From Odiellus spinosus (lineage: Eukaryota; Arthropoda; Arachnida; Opiliones; Phalangiidae): a stretch of 64,000 nucleotides of DNA. Positions within the stretch are counted from its first letter, which is position 1; every line of letters starts with the position of its first letter. Position numbers and translations under genes: made by a program. Shown here piece after piece: positions 1 through 64,000 of the stretch. The notes under the pieces were generated by a model. It searched no databases, was not told the origin of the DNA, and saw only the letters and a list, made by a program, of their open reading frames with translations. The DNA lies in contig OY987230.1 of assembly GCA_963920705.1 (NCBI GenBank), positions 3,100,001 to 3,164,000 on the forward strand. Direction: 5' to 3'.

Positions 1-104
1 TGGATTCAAATGGACACAAAACTTTTGATTTTTAAGCGATTTAGACAAAATTAAGACCACTCGAAAGACCAAATTTTGGTCTATCTAAAAAACAAGAGTT
101 TTGG

Positions 105-121
105 AAAATCCGTTGAAAAAC
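105..121 (+). repeat. 17-bp module boundary motif (first instance)
   Basis: AAAATCCGTTGAAAAAC, paired with its reverse complement at 235-251. The pair recurs in every intact unit and separates the C and K modules. It is the sequence common to all module ends whichever way they point, so orientation changes must resolve in or next to it. Occasional single-base variants are seen, such as ATCAGTTG near 3171, AATACGTTG near 2404 and GTGGAAAAAC near 9683. Confidence 0.9.
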
Positions 122-383
122 ATGGAAAATATGGACAATTCAAAAAACATCTAATATCAAAAAGCGAATTTTGAAAATCTGAAATTTGACTATTTTGATA
201 TTCTATGATTTCTTGAATTGGCCATATTTTCCATGTTTTTCAACGGATTTTTGAAAACTCTTATTATTTAAACTGTCCATTAATTGCTCTTTCGAATGAC
301 TTTGGTTTTGTCTAAATTGCAAAATTGTGACAAATATAAAATTGGTTAAAATTAAGCAAAAACGCTTAAAAATCCAAGATTAT

Positions 384-766
384 TGGATTCAAATGGACAC
401 AAAACTTTTGATTTTTAAGCGATTTAGACAAAATTAAGACCACTCGAAAGACCAAATTTTGGTCTATCTAAAAAACAAGAGTTTTGGAAAATCCGTTGAA
501 AAACATGGAAAATATGGACAATTCAAAAAACATCTAATATCAAAAAGGGAATTTTGAAAATCTGAAATTTGACTATTTTGATATTCTATGATTTCTTGTA
601 TTGGCCATATTTTTCTTGTTTTTCAACGGATTTTTGAAAACTCTTATTATTTAGACTGTCCATTAATTGCTCTTTCGAATGACTTTGGTTTTGTCTAAAT
701 TGCCAAAACGTGACAAATATAAAATTGGTTAAAATTAAGCAAAAACGCTTAAAAATCCAAGATTAT
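384..766 (+). repeat. Representative 383-bp satellite monomer
   Basis: This is one unit in the forward connector phase. The order is: the right part of a K module (TGGATTCAAATGGAC..GATTTAGACAAAATTAAG), the 17 bp boundary motif at 488-504, the C module, the inverted boundary motif at 618-634, then the left part of the next K module, ending CGCTTAAAAATCCAAGAT. The two halves are diverged inverted copies of each other. One strand reads GATTTAGACAAAATTAAG..GAGTTTTGGAAAATCCG and the other AATTTAGACAAAACCAAAG..GAGTTTTCAAAAATCCG. Most of the 383 bp is therefore an imperfect palindrome with two short asymmetric centres. Confidence 0.95.
488..634 (+). repeat. C (core) module, forward example
   Basis: This 147 bp module is bounded by AAAATCCGTTGAAAAAC (488-504) and its reverse complement (618-634). 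Arm 'a' (CATGGAAAATATGGACAATT..) faces a diverged inverted arm 'b' (reverse complement of CAAGAAAAATATGGCCAATT..) around an asymmetric centre of about 35 bp. The transcript could form a hairpin with imperfect stems. Both arms lack any coding signature. Confidence 0.9.
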
Positions 767-869
767 TGGATTCAAATGGACACAAAACTTTTGAATTTTA
801 AGCGATTTAGACAAAATTAAGACCACTCGAAAGACCAAATTTTGGTCTATCTAAAAACAATAGTTTTGG

Positions 870-1016
870 AAAATCCGTTGAAAAACAAGAAAAATATGGC
901 CAATTCAAGAAAGCATACAATATCAAAATAGTCAAATTTCAGATTTTCAAAATTCGCTTTTTGATATTAGATGTTTTTTGAATTGTCCATATTTTCCATG
1001 TTTTTCAACGGATTTT
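870..1016 (-). repeat. C module, inverted example with unchanged neighbours
   Basis: This 147 bp module has the same two boundary motifs (870-886 and 1000-1016) but reads arm b, reversed centre (AATAGTCAAATTTCAG..), arm a. The K modules on both sides, marked at 767 and 1149, are still forward. The core has therefore changed orientation without its flanks. Confidence 0.92.
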
Positions 1017-4000
1017 TGAAAACTCTTATTATTTAAACTGTCCATTAATTGCTCTTTCGAATGACTTTGGTTTTGTCTAAATTGCAAAATTGTGACAAAT
1101 ATAAAATTGGTTCAAATTAAGCAAAAACGCTTAAAAATCCAAGATTATTGGATTCAAATGGACACAAAACTTTTGATTTTTAAGCGATTTAGACAAAATT
1201 AAGACCACTCGAAAGAGCAAATATTGCTCTATCTAAAAAACAAGAGTTTTGGAAAATCCGTTGAAAAACATGGAAAATATGGACAATTCAAAAAACATCT
1301 AATATCAAAAAGCGAATTTTGAAAATCTGAAATTTGACTATTTTGATATTCTATGATTTCTTGAATTGGCCATATTTTTCTCGTTTTTCAACGGATTTTT
1401 GAAAACTCTTATTATTTAGACTGTCCATTAATTGCTCTTTCGAATGGCTTTGGTTTTGTCTAAATTGCCAAAACGTGACAAATATAAAATTGGTTAAAAT
1501 TAAGCAAAAACGCTTAAAAATCCAAGATTATTGGATTCAAATGGACACAAAACTTTTGAATTTTAAGCGATTTAGACAAAATTAAGACCACTCGAAAGAC
1601 CAAATTTTGGTCTATCTAAAAAACAATAGTTTTGGAAAATCCGTTGAAAAACAAGAAAAATATGGCCAATTCAAGAAATCATACAATATCAAAATAGTCA
1701 AATTTCAGATTTTCAAAATTCGCTTTTTGATATTAGATGTTTTTAGAATTGTCCATATTTTCCATGTTTTTCAACGGATTTTTGAAAACTCTTATTATTT
1801 AAACTGTCCAATAATTGCTCTTTCGAATGACTTTGGATTTGTCTAAATTGCAAAATTGTGACAAATATAAAATTGGTTAAAATTAAGCAAAAACGCTTAA
1901 AAATCCAAGATTATTGGATTCAAATGGACACAAAACTTTTGATTTTTAAGCGATTTAGACAAAATTAAGACCACTCGAAAGACCAAATTTTGGTCTATCT
2001 AAAAAACAAGAGTTTTGGAAAATCCGTTGAAAAACATGGAAAATATGGACAATTCAAAAAACATCTAATATCAAAAAGCGAATTTTGAAAATCTGAAATT
2101 TGACTATTTTGATATTCTATGATTTTTTGAATTGGCCATATTTTCCATGTTTTTCAACGGATTTTTGAAAACTCTTATTATTTAAACTGTCCATTAATTG
2201 CTCTTTCGAATGACTTTGGTTTTGTCTAAATTGCAAAATTGTGACAAATATAAAATTGGTTAAAATTAAGCAAAAACGCTTAAAAATCCAAGATTATTGG
2301 ATTCAAATTGACACAAAACTTTTGATTTTTAAGCGATTTAGACAAAATTAAGACCACTCGAAAGAGCAAATATTGCTCTATCTAAAAAACAAGAGTTTTG
2401 GAAAATACGTTGAAAAACATGGAAAATATGGACAATTCAAAAAACATCTAATATCAAAAAGCGAATTTTGAAAATCTGAAATTTGACTATTTTGATATTC
2501 TATGATTTCTTGAATTGGCCATATTTTTCTTGTTTTTCAACGGATTTTTGAAAACTCTTATTATTTAGACTGTCCATTAATTGCTCTTTCGAATGACTTT
2601 GGTTTTGTCTAAATTGCCAAAACGTGACAAATATAAAATTGGTTAAAATTAAGCAAAAACGCTTAAAAATCCAAGATTATTGGATTCAAATGGACACAAA
2701 ACTTTTGAATTTTAAGCGATTTAGACAAAATTAAGACCACTCGAAAGACCAAATTTTGGTCTATCTAAAAAACAATAGTTTTGGAAAATCCGTTGAAAAA
2801 CAAGAAAAATATGGCCAATTCAAGAAATCATACAATATCAAAATAGTCAAATTTCAGATTTTCAAAATTCGCTTTTTGATATTAGATGTTTTTTGAATTG
2901 TCCATATTTTCCATGTTTTTCAACGGATTTTTGAAAACTCTTATTATTTAAACTGTCCATTAATTGCTCTTTCGAATGACTTTGGTTTTGTCTAAATTGC
3001 AAAATTGTGACAAATATAAAATTGGTTAAAATTAAGCAAAAACGCTTAAAAATCCAAGATTATTGGATTCAAATGGACACAAAACTTTTGAATTTTAAGC
3101 GATTTAGACAAAATTAAGACCACTCGAAAGACCAAATTTTGGTCTATCTAAAAAACAAGAGTTTTGGAAAATCAGTTGAAAAACATGGAAAATATGGACA
3201 ATTCAAAAAACATCTAATATCAAAAAGCGAATTTTGAAAATCTGAAATTTGACTATTTTGATATTCTATGATTTCTTGAATTGGCCATATTTTTCTTGTT
3301 TTTCAACGGATTTTTGAAAACTCTTATTATTTAGACTGTCCATTAATTGCTCTTTCGAATGACTTTGGTTTTGTCTAAATTGCAAAATTGTGACAAATAT
3401 AAAATTGGCTAAAATTAAGCAAAAACGCTTAAAAATCCAAGATTATTGGATTCAAATGGACACAAAACTTTTGATTTTTAAGCGATTTAGACAACATTAA
3501 GACCACTCGAAAGAGCAAATATTGCTCTATCTAAAAAACAAGAGTTTTGGAAAATACGTTGAAAAACATGGAAAATATGGACAATTCAAAAAACATCTAA
3601 TATCAAAAAGCGAATTTTGAAAATCTGAAATTTGACTATTTTGATATTCTATGATTTCTTGAATTGGCTATATTTTTCTTGTTTTTCAACGGATTTTTGA
3701 AAACTCTTATTATTTAGACTGTCCATTAATTGCTCTTTCGAATGACTTTGGTTTTGTCTAAATTGCCAAAACGTGACAAATATAAAATTGGTTAAAATTA
3801 AGCAAAAACGCTTAAAAATCCAAGATTATTGGATTCAAATGGACACAAAACTTTTGAATTTTAAGCGATTTAGACAAAATTAAGACCACTCGAAAGACCA
3901 AATTTTGGTCTATCTAAAAAACAATAGTTTTGGAAAATCCGTTGAAAAACAAGAAAAATATGGCCAATTCAATAAATCATACAATATCAAAATAGTCAAA

Positions 4001-7000
4001 TTTCAGATTTTCAAAATTCGCTTTTTGATATTAGATGTTTTTTGAATTGTCCATATTTTCCATGTTTTTCAACGGATTTTTGAAAACTCTTATTATTTAA
4101 ACTGTCCATTAATTGCTCTTTCGAATGACTTTGGTTTTGTCTAAATTGCAAAATTGTGACAAATATAAAATTGGTTAAAATTAAGCAAAAACGCTTAAAA
4201 ATCCAAGATTATTGGATTCAAATGGACACAAAACTTTTGAATTTTAAGCGATTTAGACAAAATTAAGACCACTCGAAAGACCAAATTTTGGTCTATCTAA
4301 AAAACAATAGTTTTGGAAAATCCGTTGAAAAACAAGAAAAATATGGCCAATTCAATAAATCATACAATATCAAAATAGTCAAATTTCAGATTTTCAAAAT
4401 TCGCTTTTTGATATTAGATGTTTTTTGAATTGTCCATATTTTCCATGTTTTTCAACGGATTTTTGAAAACTCTTATTATTTAAACTGTCCATTAATTGCT
4501 CTTTCGAATGACTTTGGTTTTGTCTAAATTGCAAAATTGTGACAAATATAAAATTGGTTAAAATTAAGCAAAAACGCTTAAAAATCCAAGATTATTGGAT
4601 TCAAATGGACACAAAACTTTTGATTTTTAAGCGATTTAGACAACATTAAGACCACTCGAAAGAGCAAATATTGCTCTATCTAAAAAACAAGAGTTTTGGA
4701 AAATACGTTGAAAAACATGGAAAATATGGACAATTCAAAAAACATCTAATATCAAAAAGCGAATTTTGAAAATCTGAAATTTGACTATTTTGATATTCTA
4801 TGATTTCTTGAATTGGCTATATTTTTCTTGTTTTTCAACGGATTTTTGAAAACTCTTATTATTTAGACTGTCCATTAATTGCTATTTCGAATGACTTTGG
4901 TTTTGTCTAAATTGCCAAAACGTGACAAATATAAAATTGGTTAAAATTAAGCAAAAACGCTTAAAAATCCAAGATTATTGGATTCAAATGGACACAAAAC
5001 TTTTGAATTTTAAGCGATTTAGACAAAATTAAGACCACTCGAAAGACCAAATTTTGGTCTATCTAAAAAACAATAGTTTTGGAAAATCCGTTGAAAAACA
5101 AGAAAAATATGGCCAATTCAAGAAATCATACAATATCAAAGTAGTCAAATTTCAGATTTTCAAAATTCGCTTTTTGATATTAGATGTTTTTTGAATTGTC
5201 CATATTTTCCATGTTTTTCAACGGATTTTTGAAAACTCTTATTATTTAAACTGTCCATTAATTGCTCTTTCGAATGACTTTGGTTTTGTCTAAATTGCAA
5301 AATTGTGACAAATATAAAATTGGTTAAAATTAAGCAAAAACGCTTAAAAATCCAAGATTATTGGATTCAAATGGACACAAAACTTTTGATTTTTAAGCGA
5401 TTTAGACAAAATTAAGACCAATCGAAAGACCAAATTTTGGTCTATCTAAAAAAAAGAGTTTTGGAAAATCCGTTGAAAAACATGGAAAATATGGACAATT
5501 CAAAAAACATCTAATATCAAAAAGCGAATTTTGAAAATCTGAAATTTGACTATTTTGATATTCTATGATTTCTTGAATTGGCCATATTTTCCATGTTTTT
5601 CAACGGATTTTTGAAAACTCTTATTATTTAAACTGTCCATTAATTGCTCTTTCGAATGACTTTGGTTTTGTCTAAATTGCAAAATTGTGACAAATATAAA
5701 ATTGGTTAAAATTAAGCAAAAACGCTTAAAAATCCAAGATTATTGGATTCAAATGGACACAAAACTTTTGAATTTTAAGCGATTTAGACAAAATTAAGAC
5801 CACTCGAAAGACCAAATTTTGGTCTATCTAAAAAACAAGAGTTTTGGAAAATCAGTTGAAAAACATGGAAAATATGGACAATTCAAAAAACATCTAATAT
5901 CAAAAAGCGAATTTTGAAAATCTGAAATTTGACTATTTTGATATTCTATGATTTCTTGAATTGGCCATATTTTTCTTGTTTTTCAACGGATTTTTGAAAA
6001 CTCTTATTATTTAGACTGTCCATTAATTGCTCTTTCGAATGACTTTGGTTTTGTCTAAATTGCAAAATTGTGACAAATATAAAATTGGCTAAAATTAAGC
6101 AAAAACGCTTAAAAATCCAAGATTATTGGATTCAAATGGACACAAAACTTTTGATTTTTAAGCGATTTAGACAACATTAAGACCACTCGAAAGAGCAAAT
6201 ATTGCTCTATCTAAAAAACAAGAGTTTTGGAAAATACGTTGAAAAACATGGAAAATATGGACAATTCAAAAAACATCTAATATCAAAAAGCGAATTTTGA
6301 AAATCTGAAATTTGACTATTTTGATATTCTATGATTTCTTGAATTGGCTATATTTTTCTTGTTTTTCAACGGATTTTTGAAAACTCTTATTATTTAGACT
6401 GTCCATTAATTGCTCTTTCGAATGACTTTGGTTTTGTCTAAATTGCCAAAACGTGACAAATATAAAATTGGTTAAAATTAAGCAAAAACGCTTAAAAATC
6501 CAAGATTATTGGATTCAAATGGACACAAAACTTTTGAATTTTAAGCGATTTAGACAAAATTAAGACCACTCGAAAGACCAAATTTTGGTCTATCTAAAAA
6601 ACAATAGTTTTGGAAAATCCGTTGAAAAACAAGAAAAATATGGCCAATTCAATAAATCATACAATATCAAAATAGTCAAATTTCAGATTTTCAAAATTCG
6701 CTTTTTGATATTAGATGTTTTTTGAATTGTCCATATTTTCCATGTTTTTCAACGGATTTTTGAAAACTCTTATTATTTAAACTGTCCATTAATTGCTCTT
6801 TCGAATGACTTTGGTTTTGTCTAAATTGCAAAATTGTGACAAATATAAAATTGGTTAAAATTAAGCAAAAACGCTTAAAAATCCAAGATTATTGGATTCA
6901 AATTGACACAAAACTTTTGATTTTTAACCGATTTAGACAAAATTAAGACCAATCGAAAGACCAAATTTTGGTCTATCTAAAAAAAAGAGTTTTGGAAAAT

Positions 7001-10000
7001 CCGTTGAAAAACATGGAAAATATGGACAATTCAAAAAACATCTAATATCAAAAAGCAAATTTTGAAAATCTGAAATTTGACTATTTTGATATTCTATGAT
7101 TTCTTGAATTGGCCATATTTTCCATGTTTTTCAACGGATTTTTGAAAACTCTTATTATTTAAACTGTCCATTAATTGCTCTTTCGAATGACTTTGGTTTT
7201 GTCTAAATTGCAAAATTGTGACAAATATAAAATTGGTTAAAATTAAGCAAAAACGCTTAAAAATCCAAGATTATTGGATTCAAATGGACACAAAACTTTT
7301 GAATTTTAAGCGATTTAGACAAAATTAAGACCACTCGAAAGACCAAATTTTGGTCTATCTAAAAAACAAGAGTTTTGGAAAATCAGTTGAAAAACATGGA
7401 AAATATGGACAATTCAAAAAACATCTAATATCAAAAAGCGAATTTTGAAAATCTGAAATTTGACTATTTTGATATTCTATTATTTCTTGAATTGGCCATA
7501 TTTTTCTTGTTTTTCAACGGATTTTTGAAAACTCTTATTATTTAGACTGTCCATTAATTGCTCTTTCGAATGACTTTGGTTTTGTCTAAATTGCAAAATT
7601 GTGACAAATATAAAATTGGCTAAAATTAAGCAAAAACGCTTAAAAATCCAAGATTATTGGATTCAAATGGACACAAAACTTTTGAATTTTAAGCGATTTA
7701 GACAAAATTAAGACCACTCGAAAGACCAAATTTTGGTCTATCTAAAAAACAATAGTTTTGGAAAATCCGTTGAAAAACAAGAAAAATATGGCCAATTCAA
7801 GAAATCATAGAATATCAAAATAGTCAAATTTCAGATTTTCAAAATTCGCTTTTTGATATTAGATGTTTTTTGAATTGTCCATATTTTCCATGTTTTTCAA
7901 CGGATTTTTGAAAACTCTTATTATTTAAACTGTCCATTAATTGCTCTTTCGAATGACTTTGTTTTGTCTAAATTGCAAAATTGTGACAAATATAAAATTG
8001 GTTAAAATTAAGCAAAAACGCTTAAAAATCCAAGATTATTGGATTCAAATGGACACAAAACTTTTGATTTTTAAGCGATTTAGACAAAATTAAGACCACT
8101 CGAAAGACCAAATTTTGGTCTATCTAAAAAACAAGAGTTTTGGAAAATCCGTTGAAAAACATGGAAAATATGGACAATTCAAAAAACATCTAATATCAAA
8201 AAGCGAATTTTGAAAATCTGAAATTTGACTATTTTGATATTCAATGATTTCTTGAATTGGCCATATTTTTCTTGTTTTTGAACGGATTTTTGAAAACTCT
8301 TATTATTTAGACTGTCCATTAATTGCTCTTTCGAATGACTTTGTTTTGTCTAAATTGCAAAATTGTGACAAATATAAAATTGGTTAAAATTAAGCAAAAA
8401 CGCTTAAAAATCCAAGATTATTGGATTCAAATGGACACAAAACTTTTGATTTTTAAGCGATTTAGACAAAATTAAGACCACTCGAAAGACCAAATTTTGG
8501 TCTATCTAAAACACAAGAGTTTTGGAAAATCCGTTGAAAAACATGGAAAATATGGACAATTCAAAAAACATCTAATATCAAAAAGCGAATTTTGAAAATC
8601 TGAAATTTGACTATTTTGATATTCAATGATTTCTTGAATTGGCCATATTTTTCTTGTTTTTCAACGGATTTTTGAAAACTCTTATTATTTAGACTGTCCA
8701 TTAATTGCTCTTTCGAATGACTTTGTTTTTGTCTAAATTGCAAAATTATGACAAATATAAAATTGGTTAAAATTAAGCAAAAACGCTTAAAAATCCAAGA
8801 TTATTGGATTCAAATGGACCCAAAACTTTTGATTTTTAAGCGATTTAGACAAAATTAAGACCACTCGAAAGAGCAAATATTGGTCTACCTGAAAATCAAG
8901 AGTTTTGGAAAATCCGTTGAAAAACATGGAAAATATGGACAATTCAAAAAACATCTAATATCAAAAAGCGAATTTTGAAAATCTGAAATTTGACTATTTT
9001 GATATTCTATGATTTCTTGAATTGGCCATATTTTTCTTGTTTTTCAACGGATTTTTGAAAACACTTATTATTTAGACTGTCCATTAATTGCTCTTTCGAA
9101 TGACTTTGGTTTTGTCTAAATTGCAAAATTGTGACAAATATAAAATTGGTTAAAATTAAGCAAAAACGCTTAAAAATCCAAGATTATTGGATTCAAATGG
9201 ACACAAAACTTTTGAATTTTAAGCGATTTAGACAAAATTAAGACCACTCGAAAGACCAAATTTTGGTCTATCTAAAAAACAATAGTTTTGGAAAATCCGT
9301 TGAAAAACAAGAAAAATATGGCCAATTCAAGAAATCATAGAATATCAAAATAGTCAAATTTCAGATTTTCAAAATTCGCTTTTTGATATTAGATGTTTTT
9401 TGAATTGTCCATATTTTCCATGTTTTTCAACGGATTTTTGAAAACTCTTATTATTTAAACTGTCCATTAATTGCTCTTTCGAATGACTTTGGTTTTGTCT
9501 AAATTGCAAAATTGTGACAAATATAAAATTGGTTAAAATTAAGCAAAAACGTTTAAAAATCCAAGATTATTGGATTCAAATGGACACAAAACTTTTGATT
9601 TTTAAGCGATTTAGACAAAATTAAGACCACTCGAAAGACCAAATTTTGGTCTATCTAAAAAACAAGAGTTTTGGAAAATCCGTGGAAAAACATGGAAAAT
9701 ATGGACAATTCAAAAAACATCGTATATCAAAAAGCGAATTTTGAAAATCTGAAATTTGACTATTTTGATATTCTATGATTTCTTGAATTGGCCATATTTT
9801 TCTTGTTTTTCAACGGATTTTTGAAAACTCTTATTATTTAGACTGTCCATTAATTGCTCTTTCGAATGACTTTGGTATTGTCTAAATTGCCAAAACGTGA
9901 CAAATATAAAATTGGTTAAAATTAAGCAAAAACGCTTAAAAATCCAAGATTATTGGATTCAAATGGACACAAAACTTTTGAATTTTAAGCGATTTAGACA

Positions 10001-10187
10001 AAATTAAGACCACTCGAAAGACCAAATTTTGGTCTATCTAAAAAACAATAGTTTTGGAAAATCCGTTGAAAAACAAGAAAAATATGGCCAATTCAAGAAA
10101 TCATAGAATATCAAAATAGTCAAATTTCAGATTTTCAAAATTCGCTTTTTGATATTAGATGTTTTTTGAATTGTCCATATTTTCCAT

Positions 10188-10457
10188 GTTTTTCAACGGA
10201 TTTTCCAAAACTCTTGATTTTCAGATAGACCAATATTTGCTCTTTCGAGTGGTCTTAATTTTGTCTAAATCGCTTAAAAATCAAAAGTTTTGTGTCCATT
10301 TGAATCCAATAATCTTGGATTTTTAAGCGTTTTTGCTTAATTTTAACCAATTTTATATTTGTCACAATTTTGCAATTTAGACAAAACCAAAGTCATTCGA
10401 AAGAGCAATTAATGGACAGTCTAAATAATAAGAGTTTTCAAAAATCCGTTGACAAAC
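10188..10457 (-). repeat. First inverted K (connector) module
   Basis: Between the boundary motifs at 10188-10204 and 10441-10457 the connector reads in reverse (GTGTCCATTTGAATCCAATA at about 10292). Its ends are exchanged as expected for inversion: the left edge is now CGGATTTTCCAAAACTC and the right edge GAGTTTTCAAAAATCCG. The right boundary carries one A-to-C change (GTTGACAAAC). This is the first K inversion in the window and ends the 27-unit forward block. Confidence 0.92.
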
Positions 10458-53027: not shown

Positions 53028-53254
53028 TACAAAAACGTTGTTTTGCTTCGCACTTCAAAAAAGTGCATTTATAGGTAAGAATTTCAAACCCGTGAAGGGA
53101 CAGAAATTAATTATCGTTGAGGGAACTATGAAAGTCACAGTCTAAGAAATCAGAAAGCCATAGTTAAAATAAATAAAATAAATACAAACTTACAAAAAAA
53201 TTACATATAAATTCGGCCTATCGAAACTTTAAGTTATGTTGATGTCATTCTATT
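53028..53254 (+). repeat. Left terminal inverted repeat of foldback element
   Basis: Begins TACAAAAACGTTGTTTTGC and ends near GTCATTCTATT. It contains a small perfect hairpin, GCACTT-CAAAA-AAGTGC, near 53049-53065. A 60-codon frame at 52963-53145 spans the satellite junction and this repeat and is not a gene. Confidence 0.85.
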
Positions 53255-53592
53255 GTACAATTCACCTTTGGAAATTCTAACTTTTTTCTAGAGTTGAAAA
53301 ACTCCCATGCGCGAAACGGTACAATAGCAAAATACCAAACAGTTGCAGCTCGTGTAGTTCTTGTGTGAAGAATTATGATATCTTAGCGAATGTTGCCTTT
53401 TGGATGTGGACTCAAGATTAAACATATTTTACCACGGGGTTTAAACCACTGTCAAAGTTTAGATGACAATTACTTTTCCCTTCTCCTAGACTCACATGGC
53501 GGTGGATTTAATTTTCAGTTTGTAAAAGCAAACACTGATATCTTTATATTTTTCCCATTCTTTAGCTCTTTTTTCTTTAGTGGAAAATATAG

Positions 53593-53814
53593 AATAGAAT
53601 GACTTCTGCATAAGTCTCGATAGGCCGAATTTATATGTAATTTTTTTTGTAAATTTGTATTTATTTTATATATTTTAACTATGGCTTTCTGATTTCTTAG
53701 ACTGTGACTTTCATAGTTCCCTCAACGATAATTAATTTCTGTCCCTTCACGGGTTTGAAATTCTTACCTATAAATGCACTTTTTTGAAGTGCGAAGCAAA
53801 ACAACGTTTTTGTA
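53593..53814 (-). repeat. Right terminal inverted repeat of foldback element
   Basis: Begins AATAGAATGAC and ends CAACGTTTTTGTA. It is the reverse complement of 53028-53254, with divergence concentrated in the A/T runs and the inner 30 bp. Confidence 0.85.
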
Positions 53815-53816
53815 TA

Positions 53817-54611
53817 ATTTGTGTTTGCTTTTGGAAAAATTACACAGTTGTAAGACCAATGAACCCGTTTTATTTAGTGGTACGTACTTAAAATAATAAA
53901 TTTACAAGTTGAAATTTAAATGAATTAATAAATATAAATATTTTATTTTGTACAAACTTTATTATTATTTAATGTTAATCTAAATTATGAGCTCGGAATT
54001 GGATAACGAATAACTTAGGATATCGATTGACAACTAGGATTTTTGCAGATATATAAATCTTGGATAAATTGATTGTTAATTTAAAACCACAAATTATATT
54101 AAAAAACATATTACATCGATACGAATTATCAAAACATAAAATTTTTAACTTGATTAAAAATCAAATTCCACATTTATTCAAACAGATGATGTAAAAATAA
54201 AATGATCACGCTTTTCAAAATCTATGATGAATGAAATTGAATAATTATATTTCAAACTACATTGGAAAGAACCAACTAAATCACTATATTCTAGCTTCGA
54301 GATATCAATTTGGGTTAAAATCCGTGAAGAAACTTGAGTTTACAATTTTCTTTTCCGAATGAAAAACTCGAGTATAACGTATCAATTTCGTATAGCAATG
54401 AGTACGAATAAAACGTTTGACTATCAGATACGTTAACTCAAATAAGAAATTAATATTTGTTGCAGAAGTCGTCGAAGAGTTTTAGAACTATTATAAGTAA
54501 ATTGATTTGATTTCGTTACAATTTTTTTTTGTTTTTTTTTATGTTATATAATTTTATGTAACCCTTGTTATTTTGGGGCACTTGCATATAAGGTAAGGTT
54601 AGTAAAGAGAC
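53817..54611. other. AT-rich non-coding stretch
   Basis: There is no frame of useful length, no repeat shared with the satellite and no recognisable RNA gene. It contains a T-rich run around 54521-54540 and several AATAAA-like words in AT-rich context, none with an associated gene. I see nothing further. Confidence 0.6.
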
Positions 54612-54820
54612 AGGTTAAGCATACAAACCAAATCACGTGAGTGTTTGGAATCCGGGCTTTATTCCCGAGTTGCGGCCATTTTATTTGCTACAGACAACTG
54701 AACAGATGGCGCCAGGAGAAGTGTGATGTGCCATGTATTAGTTGTATCAAAATTAGCCCCGCCCTGGAAAGCAAAACTGGATTCCGAAAAGTCACGTGAT
54801 TTGGTTTGTCTGCTTAACCT
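54612..54820. mobile_element. MITE-like element with 29-bp inverted ends containing CACGTG
   Basis: The 29 bp at 54612-54640 (AGGTTAAGC..TCACGTGA) match the reverse complement of 54792-54820 at 28 of 29 positions. The symmetry weakens but continues inward (GGAATCC on both sides). Each end holds the palindrome CACGTG. The roughly 150 bp interior is more GC-rich than its surroundings (GCGGCCATTTT, AGATGGCGCC) and non-coding. I could not find a clear target-site duplication, so the superfamily is open. Confidence 0.65.
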
Positions 54821-55140
54821 TGATAAAAGTTAATTTAGCTAAGCAGTCTGTATTCGCTGCAACAAAAGAAATAAGTTGTTACAATTTAGCTTATAACTTT
54901 CTCTTTCCTCATTGTTTAAAAGAAACTAGCCTCCTCGTGGCGTTGTTTTAATAAATAAAATTACGATCCTGTTAACCCAACAGAAATACGTTTAAATATT
55001 ATACAAAATATAGGTGGGTAACAGTTTTTCAGGAATTCCTAAAATTAGATACCCATATTGCCGAAAACCTAAAAATGTAAACAAGAGACCAGTATCCCTT
55101 AGTTAAAGGTTTTTAAATAACAAGTATGTGTGACATTGAA
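54821..55140. other. Non-coding stretch between MITE-like element and small gene
   Basis: It holds AATAAA at about 54950, followed by an imperfect inverted pair (CTGTTAACCCA at about 54969 and GTGGGTAACAG at about 55014). There is no open frame of note. The end of a long terminal repeat was considered, but no second copy or primer-binding site could be shown. Confidence 0.5.
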
Positions 55141-55167
55141 ATAAAAACACCTCTATAACAAATATGA

Positions 55168-55173
55168 TTTATT
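55168..55173 (-). terminator. Polyadenylation signal AATAAA of the small gene
   Basis: AATAAA on the minus strand lies 14 nt downstream of the stop codon. A GT/T-rich stretch (TTGTTATAGAGGTGTTTTT) follows within about 10 nt, the usual arrangement for cleavage and polyadenylation. With the initiator at 55491 the mature transcript would be roughly 330-350 nt. Confidence 0.45.
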
Positions 55174-55187
55174 TAGTCAAGCGTAAT

Positions 55188-55382
55188 TCACGCGATGGTT
55201 AAAATAAATATTTCCATGTACGCAATGATCAGGCTGACGATGTAGAAGTTCTTGCTCAGGGTTCCCACTTCCTCAAAGTCTTGACGCATAGCGCGGTTTT
55301 CTAGCAGGCAGGTTTCTTCATAGAATGACTTATGCAGATGATAAGTAGATACTGCTGACAATGTGATGGTCGAGTGTTTCAT
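55188..55382 (-). CDS. Hypothetical small protein with C-terminal membrane segment (64 aa)
   Basis: I do not recognise this product. The 64-codon frame begins MKHSTITLSAVS and ends at TGA. Residues about 1-45 are polar, with a charged patch (YEETCLLENRAMRQDFEEVG) and a single cysteine at position 25. Residues 46-64 (FYIVSLIIAYMEIFILTIA) are hydrophobic with one Glu (57), like a tail anchor or short membrane helix ending at the C-terminus. There is no N-terminal signal peptide. Several lines favour a real gene: a TATA box and TCATTT initiator upstream give a 5' leader of about 109 nt; AATAAA starts 14 nt past the stop; and many codons end in C or G (AAC TTC TAC ATC GTC AGC CTG ATC), unlike the AT-rich surroundings. 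The ATG is the first in the frame and the first in the predicted leader that opens a frame of this length. It could also be an exon remnant or a captured gene fragment carried by the island. Confidence 0.42.
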   Translation of the reverse strand: MKHSTITLSAVSTYHLHKSFYEETCLLENRAMRQDFEEVGTLSKNFYIVSLIIAYMEIFILTIA

Positions 55383-55487
55383 GGCACGCCAGTCAGTTAA
55401 TGAAGATGCGACGCTATCCTTCCACCTTGGAGTTCAAAGTAATGACTAACCAATACTTCCAAGTTGACGTCGAGATATTAAGCAGTC

Positions 55488-55524
55488 AAATGATATTGTT
55501 TCGCTGAATACCTAGCCATTTATA
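55488..55524 (-). promoter_or_regulatory. TATA box plus initiator of the small gene
   Basis: On the minus strand TATAAAT (55524 to 55518) is followed by TCATTT (55493 to 55488). The initiator A at 55491 lies 33 bp from the first T of the TATA box, close to the usual spacing for RNA polymerase II core promoters. TCATTT fits the arthropod initiator consensus TCAKTY. Transcription from here would read straight into the 64-codon frame. Confidence 0.5.
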
Positions 55525-55790
55525 CCCAAAGTAGGCAAGATAAAAAACGGGCCCATTAACAAAGAGTGGCCTACTGGGGGAGTGGTGTCCCACCGCCGAT
55601 TTTTATAAACTAATGAATTAATTAAATCTGTCTCAGAGTCTATTTTTCTAAGACATTTTGGAAATCTCATCTCTATATATCATTGAGGCTAATGTGAAAT
55701 ACCCTAGTTTATCTACCCTACGGTATATCATTCTAATTTTGTTAATAAAACATTATCAACAAAACATTCCGTGCGTTTCTTAGATATAGA
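55525..55790. other. Non-coding stretch upstream of the small gene
   Basis: This is the far upstream region of the minus-strand promoter. A GC-richer patch (GGGGGAGTGGTGTCCCACCG, about 55576-55596) stands out from AT-rich flanks. No known regulatory element can be named and there is no frame of note. Confidence 0.5.
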
Positions 55791-55866
55791 GACTAAAAAA
55801 ATAGTTTCCTTATTCCGTCTTTCGCTTTGACTAAAAAAATAGTTTCCTTATTCCGTCTTTCGCTTT
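55791..55866. repeat. Perfect 38-bp tandem duplication
   Basis: Two identical 38 bp copies (55791-55828 and 55829-55866), each GACTAAAAAAATAG..CCGTCTTTCGCTTT. There is no divergence between them, so the duplication is recent or an assembly duplicate. Confidence 0.93.
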
Positions 55867-56130
55867 AACGTTATCTAAAGTTTTTGTTATCTCAGTCGTA
55901 GTATTCAACATCAGAAAAGTATAAAAAATATAGAACACCCCAACATTTCTCTCTCTCTCGAATGCAAACTATGAATGAAACGCCGTCTTTCACGGGGCTT
56001 CAACGTTATCTATAAAGCTTTTGTTATCTCAGTCGAAGTATTCATCAGAAAAACATAGAAAAATATAGAGTACCCCCATGATCCTAACATATTTTTCTCT
56101 CTCGAATGCAAACTCTCAATGAAACGGACT
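55867..56130. repeat. Diverged ~134-bp tandem duplication
   Basis: The copy starting AACGTTATCTAAAG at 55867 is repeated from about 56001 (CAACGTTATCTATAAAG). Shared blocks in order are TTTTGTTATCTCAGTCG, AGTATTCA, CATCAGAAAA, AATATAGA, TCTCTCTCGAATGCAAACT and AATGAAACG. Small indels and substitutions separate the copies, so this is older than the 38 bp duplication beside it. Confidence 0.85.
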
Positions 56131-56138
56131 CGCAGTCG

Positions 56139-56186
56139 GGAGAAGAAGAAAAAGAAGAAGAAGAAGAAGAAGAAGAAGAAGAAGAA
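56139..56186 (+). repeat. GAA/GAAGAA microsatellite
   Basis: A nearly perfect run of GAA triplets with one early interruption (GAAAAAGAAG). Read on the minus strand it gives the run of phenylalanines in a spurious 69-codon frame at 56010-56219. Purine-strand GAA repeats can adopt triplex structure. Confidence 0.95.
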
Positions 56187-56275
56187 TATCTCAGTTATCA
56201 ATATGACAAAGAATTCCACCTCATATGGTTAATTTCCATAAACGTTTCTGATGAAATTGTGAGAGACCTATAAAT

Positions 56276-56299
56276 AAAACAGGCCGGCAGGCCTGTTTT
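56276..56299. other. GC-rich perfect hairpin at the right edge of the island
   Basis: AAAACAGGCC, loop GGCA, then GGCCTGTTTT: a perfect 10 bp stem followed by T and then the satellite (AATAGTC). It is the most GC-rich structure in an AT-rich neighbourhood and ends one base before the shared AATA. A terminal hairpin is typical of Helitron/Helentron-type 3' ends, but the canonical CTRR end is absent, so this is only a resemblance. Confidence 0.8.
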
Positions 56300-56300
56300 T

Positions 56301-59051
56301 AATAGTCAAATTTCAGATTTTCAAAATTCGCTTTTTGATATTAGATGTTTTTTGAATTGTCCATATTTTCCATGTTTTTCAACGGATTTTTGAAAACTCT
56401 TATTATTTAAACTGTCCATTAATTGCTCTTTCGAATGACTTTGTTTTGTCTAAATTGCAAAATTGTGACAAATATAAAATTGGTTAAAATTAAGGAAAAA
56501 CGCTTAAAAATCCAAGATTATTGGATTCAAATGAACACAAAACTTTTGATTTTTAAGCGATTTAGACAAAATTAAGACCACTCGAAAGACCAAATTTTGG
56601 TCTATCTAAAAAACAAGAGTTTTGGAAAATCCGTTGAAAAACATGGAAAATATGGACAATTCAAAAAACATCTAATATCAAAAAGCTAATTTTGAAAATC
56701 TGAAATTTGACTATTTTGATATTCTATGATTTCTTGAATTGGCCATATTTTTCTTGTTTTTCAACGGATTTTTGAAAACTCTTATTATTTAGACTGTCCA
56801 TTAATTGCTCTTTCGAATGACTTTGGTTTTGTCTAAATTGCCAAAACGTGACAAATATAAAATTGGTTAAAATTAAGCAAAAACGCTTAAAAATCCAAGA
56901 TTATTGGATTCAAATGGACACAAAACTTTTGATTTTTAAGCGATTTAGACAAAATTAAGACCACTCGAAAGAGCAAATATTGATCTATCTAAAAAACAAG
57001 AGTTTTGGAAAATCAGTTGAAAAACATGGAAAATATGGACAATTCAAAAAACATCAAATATCAAAAAGCGAATTTTGAAAATCTGAAATTTGACTATTTT
57101 GATATTCTATGATTTCTTGAATTGGCCATATTTTTCTTGTTTTTCAACGGATTTTTGAAAACACTTATTATTTAGACTGTCCATTAATTGCTCTTTCGAA
57201 TGACTTTGGTTTTGTCTAAATTGCAAAATTGTGACAAATATAAAATTGGTTAAAATTAAGCAAAAACGCTTAAAAATCCAAGATTATTGGATTCAAATGG
57301 ACACAAAACTTTTGAATTTTAAGCGATTTAGACAAAATTAAGACCACTCGAAAGACCAAATTTTGGTCTATCTAAAAAACAATAGTTTTGGAAAATCCGT
57401 TGAAAAACAAGAAAAATATGGCCAATTCAAGAAATCATACAATATCAAAATAGTCAAATTTCAGATTTTCAAAATTCGCTTTTTGATATTAGATGTTTTT
57501 TGAATTGTCCATATTTTCCATGTTTTTCAACGGATTTTTTAAAACTCTTATTATTTAAACTGTCCATTAATTGCTCTTTCGAATGACTTTGTTTTGTCTA
57601 AATTGCAAAATTGTGACAAATATAAAATTGGTTAAAATTAAGCAAAAACGCTTAAAAATCCAAGATTATTGGATTCAAATGGACACAAAACTTTTGATTT
57701 TTAAGCGATTTAGACAAAATTAAGACCACTCGAAAGACCAAATTTTGGTCTATCTAAAAAACAAGAGTTTTGGAAAATCCGTTGAAAAACATGGAAAATA
57801 TGGACAATTCAAAAAACATCTAATATCAAAAAGCGAATTTTGAAAATCTGAAATTTGACTATTTTGATATTCTATGATTTCTTGAATTGGCCATATTTTT
57901 CTTGTTTTTCAACGGATTTTTGAAAACTCTTATTATTTAGACTGTCCATTAATTGCTCTTTCGAATGACTTTGGTTTTGTCTAAATTGCCAAAACGTGAC
58001 AAATATAAAATTGGTAAAAATTAAGCAAAAACGCTTAAAAATCCAAGATTATTGGATTCAAATGGACACAAAACTTTTGAATTTTAAGCGATTTAGACAA
58101 AATTAAGACCACTCGAAAGACCAAATTTTGGTCTATCTAAAAAACATAGTTTTGGAAAATCCGTTGAAAAACAAGAAAAATATGGCCAATTCTAGAAATC
58201 ATACAATATCAAAATAGTCAAATTTCAGATTTTAAAAATTCGCTTTTTGATATTAGATGTTTTTTGAATTGTCCATATTTTCCATGTTTTTCAACGGATT
58301 TTCCAAAACTCTTGATTTTCAGATAGACCAATATTTGGTCTTTCGAGTGGTCTTAATTTTGTCTAAATCGCTTAAAAATCAAAAGTTTTGTGTCCATTTG
58401 AATCCAATAATCTTGGATTTTTAAGCGTTTTTGCTTTATTTTAACCAATTTTATATTTGTCACAATTTTGCAATTTAGACAAAACCAAAGTCATTCGAAA
58501 GAGCAATTAATGGACAGTTTAAATAATAAGAGTTTTCATAAATCCGTTGAAAAACATGGAAAATATGGACAATTCAAAAAACATCTAATATCAAAAAGCG
58601 AATTTTGAAAATCTGAAATTTGACTATTTTGATATTCTATGATTTCTTGAATTGGCCATATTTTTCTTGTTTTTCAACGGATTTTTGAAAACTCTTATTA
58701 TTTAGACTGTCCATTAATTGCTCTTTAGAATGACTTTGGTTTTGTCTAAATTGCAAAATTGTGACAAATATAAAATTGGTTAAAATTAAGCAAAAACGCT
58801 TAAAAATCCAAGATTATTCGATTCAAATGGACACAAAACTTTTGAATTTTAGGCGATTTAGACAAAATTAAGACCACTCGAAAGACCAAATTTTGGTCTA
58901 TCTAAAAAACAATAGTTTTGGAAAATCCGTTGAAAAACAAGAAAAATATGGCCAATTCAAGAAATCATACAATATCAAAATAGTCAAATTTCAGATTTTC
59001 AAAATTCGCTTTTTGATATTAGATGTTTTTTGAATTGTCCATATTTTCCAT
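56301..59051. repeat. Satellite block right of the island
   Basis: It resumes in the middle of a reversed C module (AATAGTCAAATTTCAG). Connectors are F 56522, F 56905, F 57288, F 57670, F 58053, R 58392, F 58818. The first four full units resemble those at 60351-61120, including the CTTTGTTTTGTC variant. No other feature is present. Confidence 0.94.
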
Positions 59052-61693
59052 GTTTTTCAACGGATTTTCCAAAACTCTTGATTTTCAGATAGACCAATAT
59101 TTGCTCTTTCGAGTGGTCTTAATTTTGTCTAAATCGCTTAAAATTCAAAAGTTTTGTGTCCATTTGAATCCAATAATCTTGGATTTTTAAGCGTTTTTGC
59201 TTAATTTTAACCAATTTTATATTTGTCACAATTTTGCAATTTAGACAAAAACAAAGTCATTCGAAAGAGCAATTAATGGACAGTCTTAATAATAAGAGTT
59301 TTCAAAAATCCGTTGAAAAACAAGAAAAATATGGCCAATTCAAGAAATCATAGAATATCAAAATAGCCAAATTTCAGATTTTCAAAATTCGCTTTTTGAT
59401 ATTAGATGTTTTTTGAATTGTCCATATTTTCCATGTTTTTCAACGGATTTTTGAAAACTCTTATTATTTAAACTGTCCATTAATTGCTCTTTCGAATGAC
59501 TTTGGTTTTGTCTAAATTGCAAAATTGTGACAAATATAAAATTGGTTAAAATAAAGCAAAAACGCTTAAAAATCCAAGATTATTGGATTCAAATGGACAC
59601 AAAACTTTTGAATTTTAAGCGATTTAGACAAAATTAAGACCACTCGAAAGACCAAATTTTGGTCTATCTAAAAAACAATAGTTTTGGAAAATCCGTTGAA
59701 AAACAAGAAAAATATGGCCAATTCTAGAAATCATACAATATCAAAATAGTCAAATTTCAGATTTTAAAAATTCGCTTTTTGATATTAGATGTTTTTTGAA
59801 TTGTCCATATTTTCCATGTTTTTCAACGGATTTTCCAAAACTCTTGATTTTCAGATAGACCAATATTTGCTCTTTCGAGTGGTCTTAATTTTGTCTAAAT
59901 CGCTTAAAAATCAAAAGTTTTGTGTCCATTTGAATCCAATAATCTTGGATTTTTAAGCGTTTTTGCTTTATTTTAACCAATTTTATATTTGTCACAATTT
60001 TCCAATTTAGACAAAACCAAAGTCATTCGAAAGAGCAATTAATGGACAGTTTAAATAATAAGAGTTTTCAAAAATCCGTTGAAAAACATGGAAAATATGG
60101 ACAATTCAAAAAACATCTAATATCAAAAAGCGAATTTTGAAAATCTGAAATTTGACTATTTTGATATTGTATGATTTCTTGAATTGGCCATATTTTTCTT
60201 GTTTTTCAACGGATTTTTGAAAACACTTATTATTTAGACTGTCCATTAATTGCTCTTTCGAATGACTTTGGTTTTTGTCTAAATTGCAAAATTGTGACAA
60301 ATATAAAATTGGTTAAAATTAAGCAAAAACGCTTAAAAATCCAAGATTATTGGATTCAAATGGACACAAAACTTTTGAATTTTAAGCGATTTAGACAAAA
60401 TTAAGACCACTCGAAAGACCAAATTTTGGTCTATCTAAAAAAAAAACAATAGTTTTGGAAAATCCGTTGAAAAACAAGAAAAATATGGCCAATTCAAGAA
60501 ATCATACAATATCAAAATAGTCAAATTTCAGATTTTCAAAATTCGCTTTTTGATATTAGATGTTTTTTGAATTGTCCATATTTTCCATGTTTTTCAACGG
60601 ATTTTTGAAAACTCTTATTATTTAAACTGTCCATTAATTGCTCTTTCGAATGACTTTGTTTTGTCTAAATTGCAAAATTGTGACAAATATAAAATTGGTT
60701 AAAATTAAGCAAAAACGCTTAAAAATCCAAGATTATTGGATTCAAATGGACACAAAACTTTTGATTTTTAAGCGATTTAGACAAAATTAAGACCACTCGA
60801 AAGACCAAATTTTGGTCTATCTAAAAAACAAGAGTTTTGGAAAATCCGTTGAAAAACATGGAAAATATGGACAATTCAAAAAACATCTAATATCAAAAAG
60901 CGAATTTTGAAAATCTGAAATTTGACTATTTTGATATTCTATGATTTCTTGAATTGGCCATATTTTTCTTGTTTTTCAACGGATTTTTGAAAACTCTTAT
61001 TATTTAGACTGTCCATTAATTGCTCTTTCGAATGACTTTGGTTTTGTCTAAATTGCCAAAACGTGACAAATATAAAATTGGTTAAAATTAAGCAAAAACG
61101 CTTAAAAATCCAAGATTATTGGATTCAAATGGACCACTCGAAAGACCAAATTTTGGTCTATCTAAAAAACAATAGTTTTGGAAAATCCGTTGAAAAACAA
61201 GAAAAATATGGCCAATTCTAGAAATCATACAATATCAAAATAGTCAAATTTCAGATTTTAAAAATTCGCTTTTTGATATTAGATGTTTTTGAATTGTCCA
61301 TATTTTCCATGTTTTTCAACGGATTTTCCAAAACTCTTGATTTTCAGATAGACCAATATTTGCTCTTTCGAGTGGTCTTAATTTTGTCTAAATCGCTTAA
61401 AAATCAAAAGTTTTGTGTCCATTTGAATCCAATAATCTTGGATTTTTAAGCGTTTTTGCTTAATTTTAACCAATTTTATATTTGTCACAATTTTGCAATT
61501 TAGACAAAACCAAAGTCATTCGAAAGAGCAATTAATGGACAGTCTAAATAATAAGTGTTTTAAAAAATCCGTTGAAAAACAAGAAAAATATGGCCAATTC
61601 AAGAAATCATAGAATATCAAAATAGTCAAATTTCAGATTTTCAAAATTCGCTTTTTGATATTAGATGTTTTTTGAATTGTCCATATTTTCCAT
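59052..61693. repeat. Higher-order repeat D, copy 1
   Basis: Connectors are R 59158, F 59584, R 59924, F 60351, F 60737, F 61120, R 61417. Every one except the last recurs 2638-2642 bp later. Private variants are GTCTTAATAATAAG, TTAAAATAAAGCAAAAACG and the 42 bp deletion near 61134. One A run near 60431-60446 is expanded, which makes the 60351-60737 spacing 386 bp. The frame at 60106-60300 is repeat sequence. Confidence 0.9.
61128..61145. repeat. 42-bp deletion in a K module, copy 1
   Basis: TTCAAATGGA joins CCACTCGAAAG directly, where intact units carry CACAAAACTTTTG..AAATTAAGA between them (42 bp). The identical junction at 63766-63783 shows that the deletion preceded the duplication of block D. 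Confidence 0.88.
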
Positions 61694-64000
61694 GTTTTTC
61701 AACGGATTTTCCAAAACTCTTGATTTTCAGATAGACCAATATTTGCTCTTTCGAGTGGTCTTAATTTTGTCTAAATCGCTTAAAATTCAAAAGTTTTGTG
61801 TCCATTTGAATCCAATAATCTTGGATTTTTAAGCGTTTTTGCTTAATTTTAACCAATTTTATATTTGTCACAATTTTGCAATTTAGACAAAAACAAAGTC
61901 ATTCGAAAGAGCAATTAATGGACAGTCTTAATAATAAGAGTTTTCAAAAATCCGTTGAAAAACAAGAAAAATATGGCCAATTCAAGAAATCATAGAATAT
62001 CAAAATAGTCAAATTTCAGATTTTCAAAATTCGCTTTTTGATATTAGATGTTTTTTGAATTGTCCATATTTTCCATGTTTTTCAACGGATTTTTGAAAAC
62101 TCTTATTATTTAAACTGTCCATTAATTGCTCTTTCGAATGACTTTGGTTTTGTCTAAATTGCAAAATTGTGACAAATATAAAATTGGTTAAAATAAAGCA
62201 AAAACGCTTAAAAATCCAAGATTATTGGATTCAAATGGACACAAAACTTTTGAATTTTAAGCGATTTAGACAAAATTAAGACCACTCGAAAGACCAAATT
62301 TTGGTCTATCTAAAAAACAATAGTTTTGGAAAATCCGTTGAAAAACAAGAAAAATATGGCCAATTCTAGAAATCATACAATATCAAAATAGTCAAATTTC
62401 AGATTTTAAAAATTCGCTTTTTGATATTAGATGTTTTTTGAATTGTCCATATTTTCCATGTTTTTCAACGGATTTTCCAAAACTCTAGATTTTCAGATAG
62501 ACCAATATTTGCTCTTTCGAGTGGTCTTAATTTTGTCTAAATCGCTTAAAAATCAAAAGTTTTGTGTCCATTTGAATCCAATAATCTTGGATTTTTAAGC
62601 GTTTTTGCTTTATTTTAACCAATTTTATATTTGTCACAATTTTGCAATTTAGACAAAACCAAAGTCATTCGAAAGAGCAATTAATGGACAGTTGAAATAA
62701 TAAGAGTTTTCAAAAATCCGTTGAAAAACATGGAAAATATGGACAATTCAAAAAACATCTAATATCAAAAAGCGAATTTTGAAAATCTGAAATTTGACTA
62801 TTTTCATATTCTATGATTTCTTGAATTGGCCATATTTTTCTTGTTTTTCAACGGATTTTTGAAAACACTTATTATTTAGACTGTCCATTAATTGCTCTTT
62901 CGAATGACTTTGGTTTTTGTCTAAATTGCAAAATTGTGACAAATATAAAATTGGTTAAAATTAAGCAAAAACGCTTAAAAATCCAAGATTATTGGATTCA
63001 AATGGACACAAAACTTTTGAATTTTAAGCGATTTAGACAAAATTAAGACCACTCGAAAGACCAAATTTTGGTCTATCTAAAAAACAATAGTTTTGGAAAA
63101 TCCGTTGAAAAACAAGAAAAATATGGCCAATTCAAGAAATCATACAATATCAAAATAGTCAAATTTCAGATTTTCAAAATTCGCTTTTTGATATTAGATG
63201 TTTTTTGAATTGTCCATATTTTCCATGTTTTTCAACGGATTTTTGAAAACTCTTATTATTTAAACTGTCCATTAATTGCTCTTTCGAATGACTTTGTTTT
63301 TTCTAAATTGCAAAATTGTGACAAATATAAAATTGGTTAAAATTAAGCAAAAACGCTTAAAAATCCAAGATTATTGGATTCAAATGGACACAAAACTTTT
63401 GATTTTTAAGCGATTTAGACAAAATTAAGACCACTCGAAAGACCAAATTTTGGTCTATCTAAAAAACAAGAGTTTTGGAAAATCCGTTGAAAAACATGGA
63501 AAATATGGACAATTCAAAAAACATCTAATATCAAAAAGCGAATTTTGAAAATCTGAAATTTGACTATTTTGATATTCTATGATTTCTTGAATTGGCCATA
63601 TTTTTCTTGTTTTTCAACGGATTTTTGAAAACTCTTATTATTTAGACTGTCCATTAATTGCTCTTTCGAATGACTTTGGTTTTGTCTAAATTGCCAAAAC
63701 GTGACAAATATAAAATTGGTTAAAATTAAGCAAAAACGCTTAAAAACCCAAGATTATTGGATTCAAATGGACCACTCGAAAGACCAAATTTTGGTCTATC
63801 TAAAAAACAATAGTTTTGGAAAATCCGTTGAAAAACAAGAAAAATATGGCCAATTCAAGAAATCATACAATATCAAAATAGTCAAATTTCAGATTTTCAA
63901 AATTCGCTTTTTGATATTAGATGTTTTTTGAATTGTCCATATTTTCCATGTTTTTCAACGGATTTTCCAAAACTCTTGATTTTCAGATAGACCAATATTT
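61694..64000. repeat. Higher-order repeat D, copy 2 (cut by window end)
   Basis: Connectors are R 61800, F 62226, R 62566, F 62993, F 63375, F 63758, and a reversed one starting near 63950 that runs off the window. It carries the same private variants as copy 1, including the 42 bp deletion near 63772. The frame at 63701-63931 is repeat sequence. Confidence 0.9.
63766..63783. repeat. 42-bp deletion in a K module, copy 2
   Basis: The same join of TTCAAATGGA to CCACTCGAAAG as at 61128-61145, 2638 bp later. The unit also carries AAAAACCCAAG in place of AAAAATCCAAG. Confidence 0.88.

Follow-up and report, generated by a model that had tools for sequence, protein, structure and literature searches.

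The window analysed here, 64,000 nucleotides of Odiellus spinosus (Opiliones; contig C6, OY987230.1, positions 3100001-3164000; assembly GCA_963920705.1, 443 Mb in 286 contigs), lies inside a megabase-scale satellite with a period of 383 bp. The repeat unit consists of a 147-bp module (C) and a 236-bp module (K); a 17-bp box, alternately forward and reverse, connects them, and both modules occur in either direction along the array. Joints at which the direction changes carry shared markers at the K end, which suggests that most of those we sampled descend from a few inversions.

Modules and boxes of the 383-bp array

The features of the window on which the analysis rests are as follows, with sequence positions counted from the first base of the window.

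1..53027, no strand: 383-bp array of alternating C and K modules in scrambled orientations (from box cutting and period)
56301..64000, no strand: the same 383-bp array, continued (from box cutting and period)
105..121, strand +: first forward copy of the 17-bp box, AAAATCCGTTGAAAAAC (three mismatches or fewer)
235..251, strand -: first reverse copy of the 17-bp box (three mismatches or fewer)
488..634, strand +: example C module with both boxes, a predicted 147-nt hairpin (-40.8 kcal/mol, z -11.45)
635..869, strand +: example K module, right end marked T228 (CAATAG; junction typing)
870..1016, strand -: example C module with a discordant marked junction on each side, T228 at the left and A20 at the right (junction typing)
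1017..1252, strand +: K module whose left end, marked A20 (TTTAAACTG), adjoins a C left end (junction typing)
10205..10440, strand -: example K module (orientation typing)

Across the window the array is long, tandem, of one unit and in high copy, as expected of a satellite. It is present at all nine places sampled between 0.1 and 3.3 Mb of contig C6, the window included: the orientations are scrambled at 0.1, 1.0, 2.0, 2.5, 3.0, 3.09 and 3.16 Mb and uniform at 3.30 Mb, and samples of the same contig at 4.0 and 6.0 Mb did not contain it. Exact copies of the box number 63,717 forward and 65,172 reverse in the whole assembly (128,889 together). Given that 293 of the 322 boxes in the window are exact, we estimate roughly 70,000 units, or about 27 Mb, genome-wide.

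When up to three mismatches are allowed, the window holds 161 forward and 160 reverse boxes, which alternate strictly save at an insertion near 53-56 kb. The distance from a forward to a reverse box is 130 bp (147 cases) or 129 bp (12), that from a reverse to a forward box is 253 bp (139) or 252 bp (13), and all but 10 of the 320 intervals show one of these spacings. Cutting at the boxes yields 159 C segments (80 forward, 79 reverse) and 159 K segments (99 forward, including two ambiguous 59-bp pieces, and 60 reverse), with bimodal orientation scores that are clearly separated except in the two 59-bp remnants. A sequence-only reading of the window had proposed two modules bounded by the box, each present in both directions, with a reversed K at 10188-10457, and in all of this it was right (that K module is typed as reverse). 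It had also held that the register is always kept, which two 59-bp and two 194-bp K remnants and the 3.27-kb insertion at 53028-56300 contradict. For counts made after these first ones, up to four mismatches were allowed in the box. At that threshold a chance box splits a normal K module at window positions 6761-6995, and this module was excluded together with all K modules of irregular length.

Each module is palindromic, though imperfectly: compared with their own reverse complements, the first C copy matches at 81% and the first K copy at 62%. Folded as single-strand DNA, two C copies reach -40.8 and -41.3 kcal/mol (z -11.45 and -10.74) and one K copy -35.1 kcal/mol (z -5.18), and C is predicted from such folding to be a strong potential hairpin. 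The K end next to the box turns along with the rest of K in 154 of the 155 K modules longer than 230 bp. The asymmetric sites of C mostly turn together as well; in 20 of the 147 C modules of 113 bp the outer arms are alike on both sides, which is what template switching between arms, as described in the available text of PMC8604942, should leave behind. Once all modules of the window are brought into one direction, no position has a different commonest base in the two orientations, and modules of the same orientation differ on average about as much as modules of opposed orientation (2.7 versus 2.9% for C and 2.98 versus 2.99% for K).

Junctions between modules of opposed direction

We typed about 134 kb of scrambled array, namely the window and seven other samples of contig C6 (L019-L025), and retained 640 of 672 junctions, the other 32 adjoining irregular segments. 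Neighbouring C and K modules agree in orientation in 384 of these 640 pairs. Perfect correlation, which the sequence-only reading had named as fatal to its model, is thus absent. The orientation switches at the other 256 junctions, or every 2.5 modules (about 0.5 kb) on average, and one sample (L024) holds a one-direction run of about 3.8 kb. Neighbouring K modules agree in 155 of 302 cases and neighbouring C modules in 96 of 317; C orientation tends to alternate.

Named by the ends that meet, concordant junctions are K-right/C-left (193) or K-left/C-right (191), and discordant ones are K-right/C-right (128) or K-left/C-left (128). The ninth base from the box at the K right end (K228) separates the two kinds in which a K right end takes part. 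Of the 128 K-right/C-right junctions, 125 have T at this base, 3 have C and none has G; of the 193 K-right/C-left junctions, 188 have G, 4 have T and 1 has A (Fisher p 5e-80, duplication ignored). Counted by unique haplotypes, the discordant kind has 58 T and 2 C and the concordant kind 99 G, 4 T and 1 A; in the window alone, 62 T and 3 C make up the 65 K-right/C-right junctions. Exact patterns in the contig C6 sample give 121 T and 1 G where a K right end adjoins AAGA, and 157 G and 1 T where it adjoins ATGG. The lone G match lies in L025 beside a shortened K, and is excluded from the 128. Among the K-left/C-left junctions, 90 combine A20 with an ATGG end, 30 combine G20 with an AAGA end, and 8 are of other types.

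Elsewhere K228 is G in 25 of 25 cases in the uniform tract of contig C6 and in 46 of 47 on contig C5 (the other being A), and also on contig C18 and in sampled copies of a foldback-like element described below. Short stretches of contigs C20 and C130 carry T at all four of their K-right/C-right junctions and at one of three K-right/C-left junctions.

Because they share the T228 marker at the K end, most of the reversed joints in the sample would go back to few events. A single founder at the level of the box can explain nearly all of the K-right/C-right junctions sampled, and the K-left/C-left junctions need about two. The sample shows no frequent formation of new inversions at the box. The markers also bear on a pair of C modules that the sequence-only reading had described as inverted relative to each other between identical K neighbours, at 870-1016 and 488-634; the K ends around the former read CAATAG and TTTAAACTG, but those around the latter CAAGAG and TTTAGACTG.

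Two explanations are made very improbable by these observations. The first is that misjoined repeats in the assembly created the orientations, as might be suspected in a repetitive region where the contig starts inside the array (its first listed junction is at C6:226). However, the orientation switches every 0.5 kb or so, the repeated orientation blocks are coherent, and the junction markers agree among the samples of contig C6 and contigs C20 and C130. A distance of about 0.5 kb between switches is well within a long read. We regard such an artefact as very unlikely. The second, to which we give even less credence, is a dedicated site-specific recombinase acting on the box, as in bacterial shufflons. 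One short asymmetric motif does stand in inverted pairs at nearly every boundary, but frequent inversion at the level of the box is not seen (no search for a recombinase was made), and the box is no more conserved than many other sequences of its length: 41% of the 17-bp stretches in the window equal or exceed the forward box in conservation, and 13% the reverse box. We also rejected the box as a selected protein site, its divergence being low yet unexceptional; it may loosely resemble the CENP-B box.

Exchange, turning and uniform tracts

The two ends of a module can be classed by the junctions they form. For C, both ends are concordant in 105 modules, one is discordant in 147 and both are discordant in 50; for K, the corresponding numbers are 79, 221 and 17. 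A lone inverted C would start with both of its own ends discordant and leave each K neighbour with one discordant end. In the data, linkage between the two C ends is about zero (D' -0.01 to -0.02; 95% confidence interval -0.26 to 0.20, 10-kb block bootstrap), whereas D' for K is -0.67 (-0.83 to -0.48, same bootstrap) and the two intervals do not overlap. With unique haplotypes the values are -0.07 for C and -0.59 for K. Thus K retains much of the founding pattern, and the ends of C are independent, reassorted by exchange. Since K is longer than C yet its ends are far less reassorted, exchange per base is probably higher in C. The alternation of C is accounted for in the same terms, because a K whose two ends face the same kind of C end forces the next C to turn. 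Where the flanking C copies point the same way, K is concordant in 79 of 96 cases.

Every class of K occurs in both orientations (numbers in the two: both ends concordant 43/36, right end discordant 66/44, left end discordant 63/48, both ends discordant 13/4). Of the 49 same-class K haplotypes that recur, 9 exist as identical copies in the two directions. Among three-module contexts with four or fewer differences, the centre is turned in 294 of 1,459 pairs, and 289 of these centres are K and 5 are C; that is, K modules of one class are seen both ways between the same C flanks, and C hardly ever between the same K flanks. As the C flanks are nearly all alike, the K figure is a weak test of descent and says little on recency. 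Near-identical runs in reversed order comprise 18 of four modules and 18 of five, where ten shuffles give 0.5 and 0.3; direct runs of the same lengths number 23 and 28 (all counts are of pairs of runs, not of independent events). The longest reversed run has five modules, and direct runs extend up to 23.

Tracts of a single orientation provide a further comparison. Locus L026, at 3.30 Mb of contig C6, holds 51 modules in one direction. In this tract 47 of 52 boxes are exact and pairwise diversity is 2.65% for C and 2.47% for K (2.5-2.6% and 3.0% in the scrambled samples). Two tracts of 45 and 51 modules on contig C5 are likewise uniform, with 8 to 11% diversity and exact boxes at 37 of 49 forward and 19 of 49 reverse sites, and having fewer exact boxes they are a weaker control than L026. 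Seven modules at the start of contig C18 are uniform too. Because such tracts exist, inversion is not clock-like in arrays that bear the box, and because one of them has equal diversity and intact boxes, scrambling looks nucleated. A nucleated process that first needs opposed C copies fits these observations, for which one tract in the main array is thin support.

We favour, at a probability of roughly 63%, a scrambling in two steps: rare inversions that make new joints, followed by exchange centred on C that conserves them. In the first step, part of a head-to-tail array would be inverted with breakpoints in the perfect inverted box of 17-18 bp or in homologous C arms, likely by template switching between inverted repeats, which would create joints of the K-right/C-right and K-left/C-left kinds. 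In the second and more frequent step, homologous exchange, duplication and loss would carry these joints through the array, with their centre in C, whose 147-bp near-palindrome likely stalls replication forks or extrudes. Exchange between C copies of the same direction would duplicate or delete modules; exchange between opposed copies would turn the intervening K, or a short run, and create no new joint. K modules would then act as linkers with coded ends (left-right, right-right or left-left), and the orientation of C would follow from the linkers. The data lend indirect support to a turning of K, and of short runs, that takes place between opposed C copies and conserves the junctions. The junction markers, the linkage patterns, a uniform tract and the hairpin potential of C are shown directly; we infer that turning takes place through exchange in C, that forks or breaks initiate it and that it is still active. 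Simple simulations started from a single founder, in which 85% of exchanges fell in C, retained 2 seeds of 400, and one of these gave classes close to the data (K 96/216/16, C 129/150/49). Recurrent flipping, when simulated, left D' of either module between -0.14 and 0.15 in the five seeds displayed.

Several results weigh against the two-step scrambling. Genome-wide, exact K-right/C-right patterns carry T in 7,502 and G in 1,329 of 8,831 cases, leaving about 15% unmarked. This unmarked share implies that there was more than the founding assumed for the sample, or that exchange reached into the 8 bp beyond the box. At least 100 places of the G type lie on contig C6, which holds all of them among the matches listed. 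(Among the matches listed, which apparently follow contig order, no discordant place falls on contigs C1-C5.) Linkage across K is absent in L020 (D' -0.06) and of opposite sign in L024 (+0.24), two of eight loci, and D' for C spans -1.00 to 0.19 by locus. Identical K copies in both orientations could also arise by gene conversion. Of the two seeds kept when 85% of exchanges fell in C, the second disagreed with the data (K D' 0.07); confining exchange to C kept 1 of 400 seeds, with a K D' of -1.0; and in few seeds did discordant junctions become as common as observed. Finally, in five-module contexts with four or fewer differences, the centre is turned in none of 255 pairs outside L026 (0 of 260 with the pairs of this uniform tract included), and turned centres appear in 3 of 519 pairs at eight or fewer differences and 47 of 1,214 at twelve or fewer. 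Turning must therefore be slow relative to duplication. The identical modules in opposite orientation (3,298 of 6,835 identical C pairs and 159 of 413 identical K pairs in the window and the seven other samples) had suggested fast ongoing flipping, an idea we dropped because the five-module contexts show none and conversion can mimic it.

The same contexts speak for another history, in which a few inversions occurred early and were then amplified within higher-order repeats, with gene conversion evening out the K and C sequences across orientations and no continuing turning. It would account for the absence of turned centres among the 255 pairs and for direct runs of up to 23 modules where reversed runs end at five. 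However, the K classes are split between orientations, and reversed runs of four to five modules are about as common as direct ones, so that inverted copying of blocks of nearly 1 kb would be needed. We consider this history unlikely, though the most credible competitor of the two-step scrambling. Overall, the array seems to owe its mixed directions to a few old inversions that ordinary recombination then spread, and not to an active switching system.

Much less probable is recurrent inversion of each module in place between its flanking boxes, by template switching or recombination. Near-perfect inverted boxes do flank both modules, the ends of K turn with it, some C copies have like outer arms, and the unmarked share of genome-wide K-right/C-right patterns could be read in the same way. 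But the discordant junctions of the sample carry founder markers, L026 is uniform in spite of equal diversity and mostly exact boxes (as is contig C5, with fewer exact boxes), and K is predominantly concordant where its two C neighbours point the same way. The sequence-only reading had pictured independently inverting cassettes, like a shufflon, in which inversion recurs at a short repeat. Independence is at odds with the marked discordant junctions, the lack of turned centres, the disagreement of neighbouring C modules and the uniformity of L026; the shufflon analogy is not supported, given the markers, the uniform tract and the five-module contexts, genome-wide exceptions notwithstanding. 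Its proposal that the mixture arose by inversion between inverted arms is supported.

A bolder version of the two-step scrambling, which we hold only tentatively and think somewhat doubtful, is that the C palindrome is a built-in exchange site and that the array scrambles itself, its orientation being two-state and nucleated. A head-to-tail array would then be stable until one seeded inversion supplied opposed C copies, after which exchange would randomise the K linkers over megabases. The junctions would be heritable markers of each seeding event.

Foldback elements and comparison with known systems

Satellite units also occur within dispersed elements, and one further insertion interrupts the array.

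L010:2597-7458, L012:1195-7003, L014:2488-8008, L011:2868-7498 and L015:2521-6865, no strand: dispersed foldback-like element on contigs C1-C4, arms starting with GGCTCCGTCAACTTGG
53028..56300, no strand: 3.27-kb insertion within a C module, with AATA on both flanks (sequence reading)

All five copies of the foldback-like element have inverted arms of 1.0-1.8 kb that are 98.4-99.7% alike, the longest extending into a core that holds satellite units in opposed halves. The terminal inverted repeats contain internal subrepeats at steps of about 149 bp, as read from alignments, and target duplications judged by eye are an exact 9 bp in three copies, 7 bp in one and unclear in one. The core K copies at L010:4341-4701 and L014:3929-4287 contain about 125 extra bases, including a small hairpin-like inverted repeat. 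As a source of the founder joints these elements were rejected: the junctions in L010, L011, L012, L014 and L015 are all concordant with G228, and the element's own orientation switch lies inside C and K and not at the box (L010, L014). In the insertion at 53028-56300, the left 0.79 kb is an inverted-repeat element with arms of about 232 bp that are 94% alike; a Pfam search with one 70-residue frame of the insertion gave no match. Other tandem repeats in the assembly include five exact TTAGG repeats in succession, a motif whose abundance points to an arthropod, found 7,381 times forward and 2,915 times in reverse with many interstitial sites on contig C1, and short-period satellites that fill most or all of several samples (23 bp in L030, L038, L056 and L067; 22 bp in L039; 14 bp in L044 and L070; 16 bp in L058).

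Satellite arrays are usually treated as head-to-tail, and their rearrangement is argued largely from copy number. Module polarity, together with joints that homologous exchange cannot create, provides two records, one of rare inversions and one of more frequent exchange. These allow exchange in C and in K to be compared within one unit, and make hairpin-directed recombination of a satellite testable in a single genome. That one array should contain both scrambled and uniform tracts, similar in sequence and diversity, is a puzzle in itself.

The individual steps proposed here have partial counterparts. Template switching between short inverted repeats inverts the spacer and homogenises the arms (PMC8604942), which fits the founder step and the C copies with like ends; unlike the present case, the part of that work available to us deals with small spacers in yeast genes and not with exchange of array modules. 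Break-induced replication at satellite centromeres (PMC12321929, PMC8997354), as presented in the accessible text of these papers, is similar in that fork stalling at non-B DNA drives array change. The main text of PMC12321929, so far as it was accessible, is without 'inversion', 'inverted' or 'opposite orientation', and the available text of PMC8997354 has 'inversion' once (for a maize centromere) and 'inverted' never. In Drosophila virilis, the foldback transposon Tetris and the TIR-220 satellite share tandem units (PMC4079207), as the foldback-like element and the satellite do here, but in the portion of that report at hand the units lie in the terminal repeats, whereas ours lie in the core between long arms. 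Within the open-licence literature as far as it could be searched, most subscription papers being outside its scope, there was no account of a satellite with modules reversed one by one; a further paper citing the Tribolium work (PMC13427858) had no bearing on the question.

The closest parallels are in Tribolium. Macro-dyad symmetry of satellite arrays may be recognised by opposed subarrays of several kb and by a conserved sequence at the inversion sites. In the present array, reversed runs do not exceed five modules and 256 of 640 junctions are switches, so such subarrays are lacking, the one-direction run of about 3.8 kb in L024 apart, and T228 in 125 of 128 K-right/C-right junctions supplies the conserved sequence. 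The satellite of Tribolium brevicornis reportedly has a complex monomer of inversely oriented subunits, with a fixed orientation within the monomer. The major and minor satellites of Tribolium madens have macro-dyad symmetry with subarrays of several kb inverted as blocks, and in the minor satellite the monomer gives rise to inverted repeats, imperfect and about 300 bp long; the available text states that such symmetry of satellite arrays is so far documented only in Tribolium (PMC13081366). As in T. madens, judged from the same text, we find a megabase satellite with monomers both ways and a conserved sequence at the orientation switches; unlike there, the switch comes every 2.5 modules or so, the two modules differ, and the switch points are the joints between modules (PMC13081366). 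The satellite of O. spinosus is thus near the macro-dyad kind of Tribolium, but at the scale of the module.

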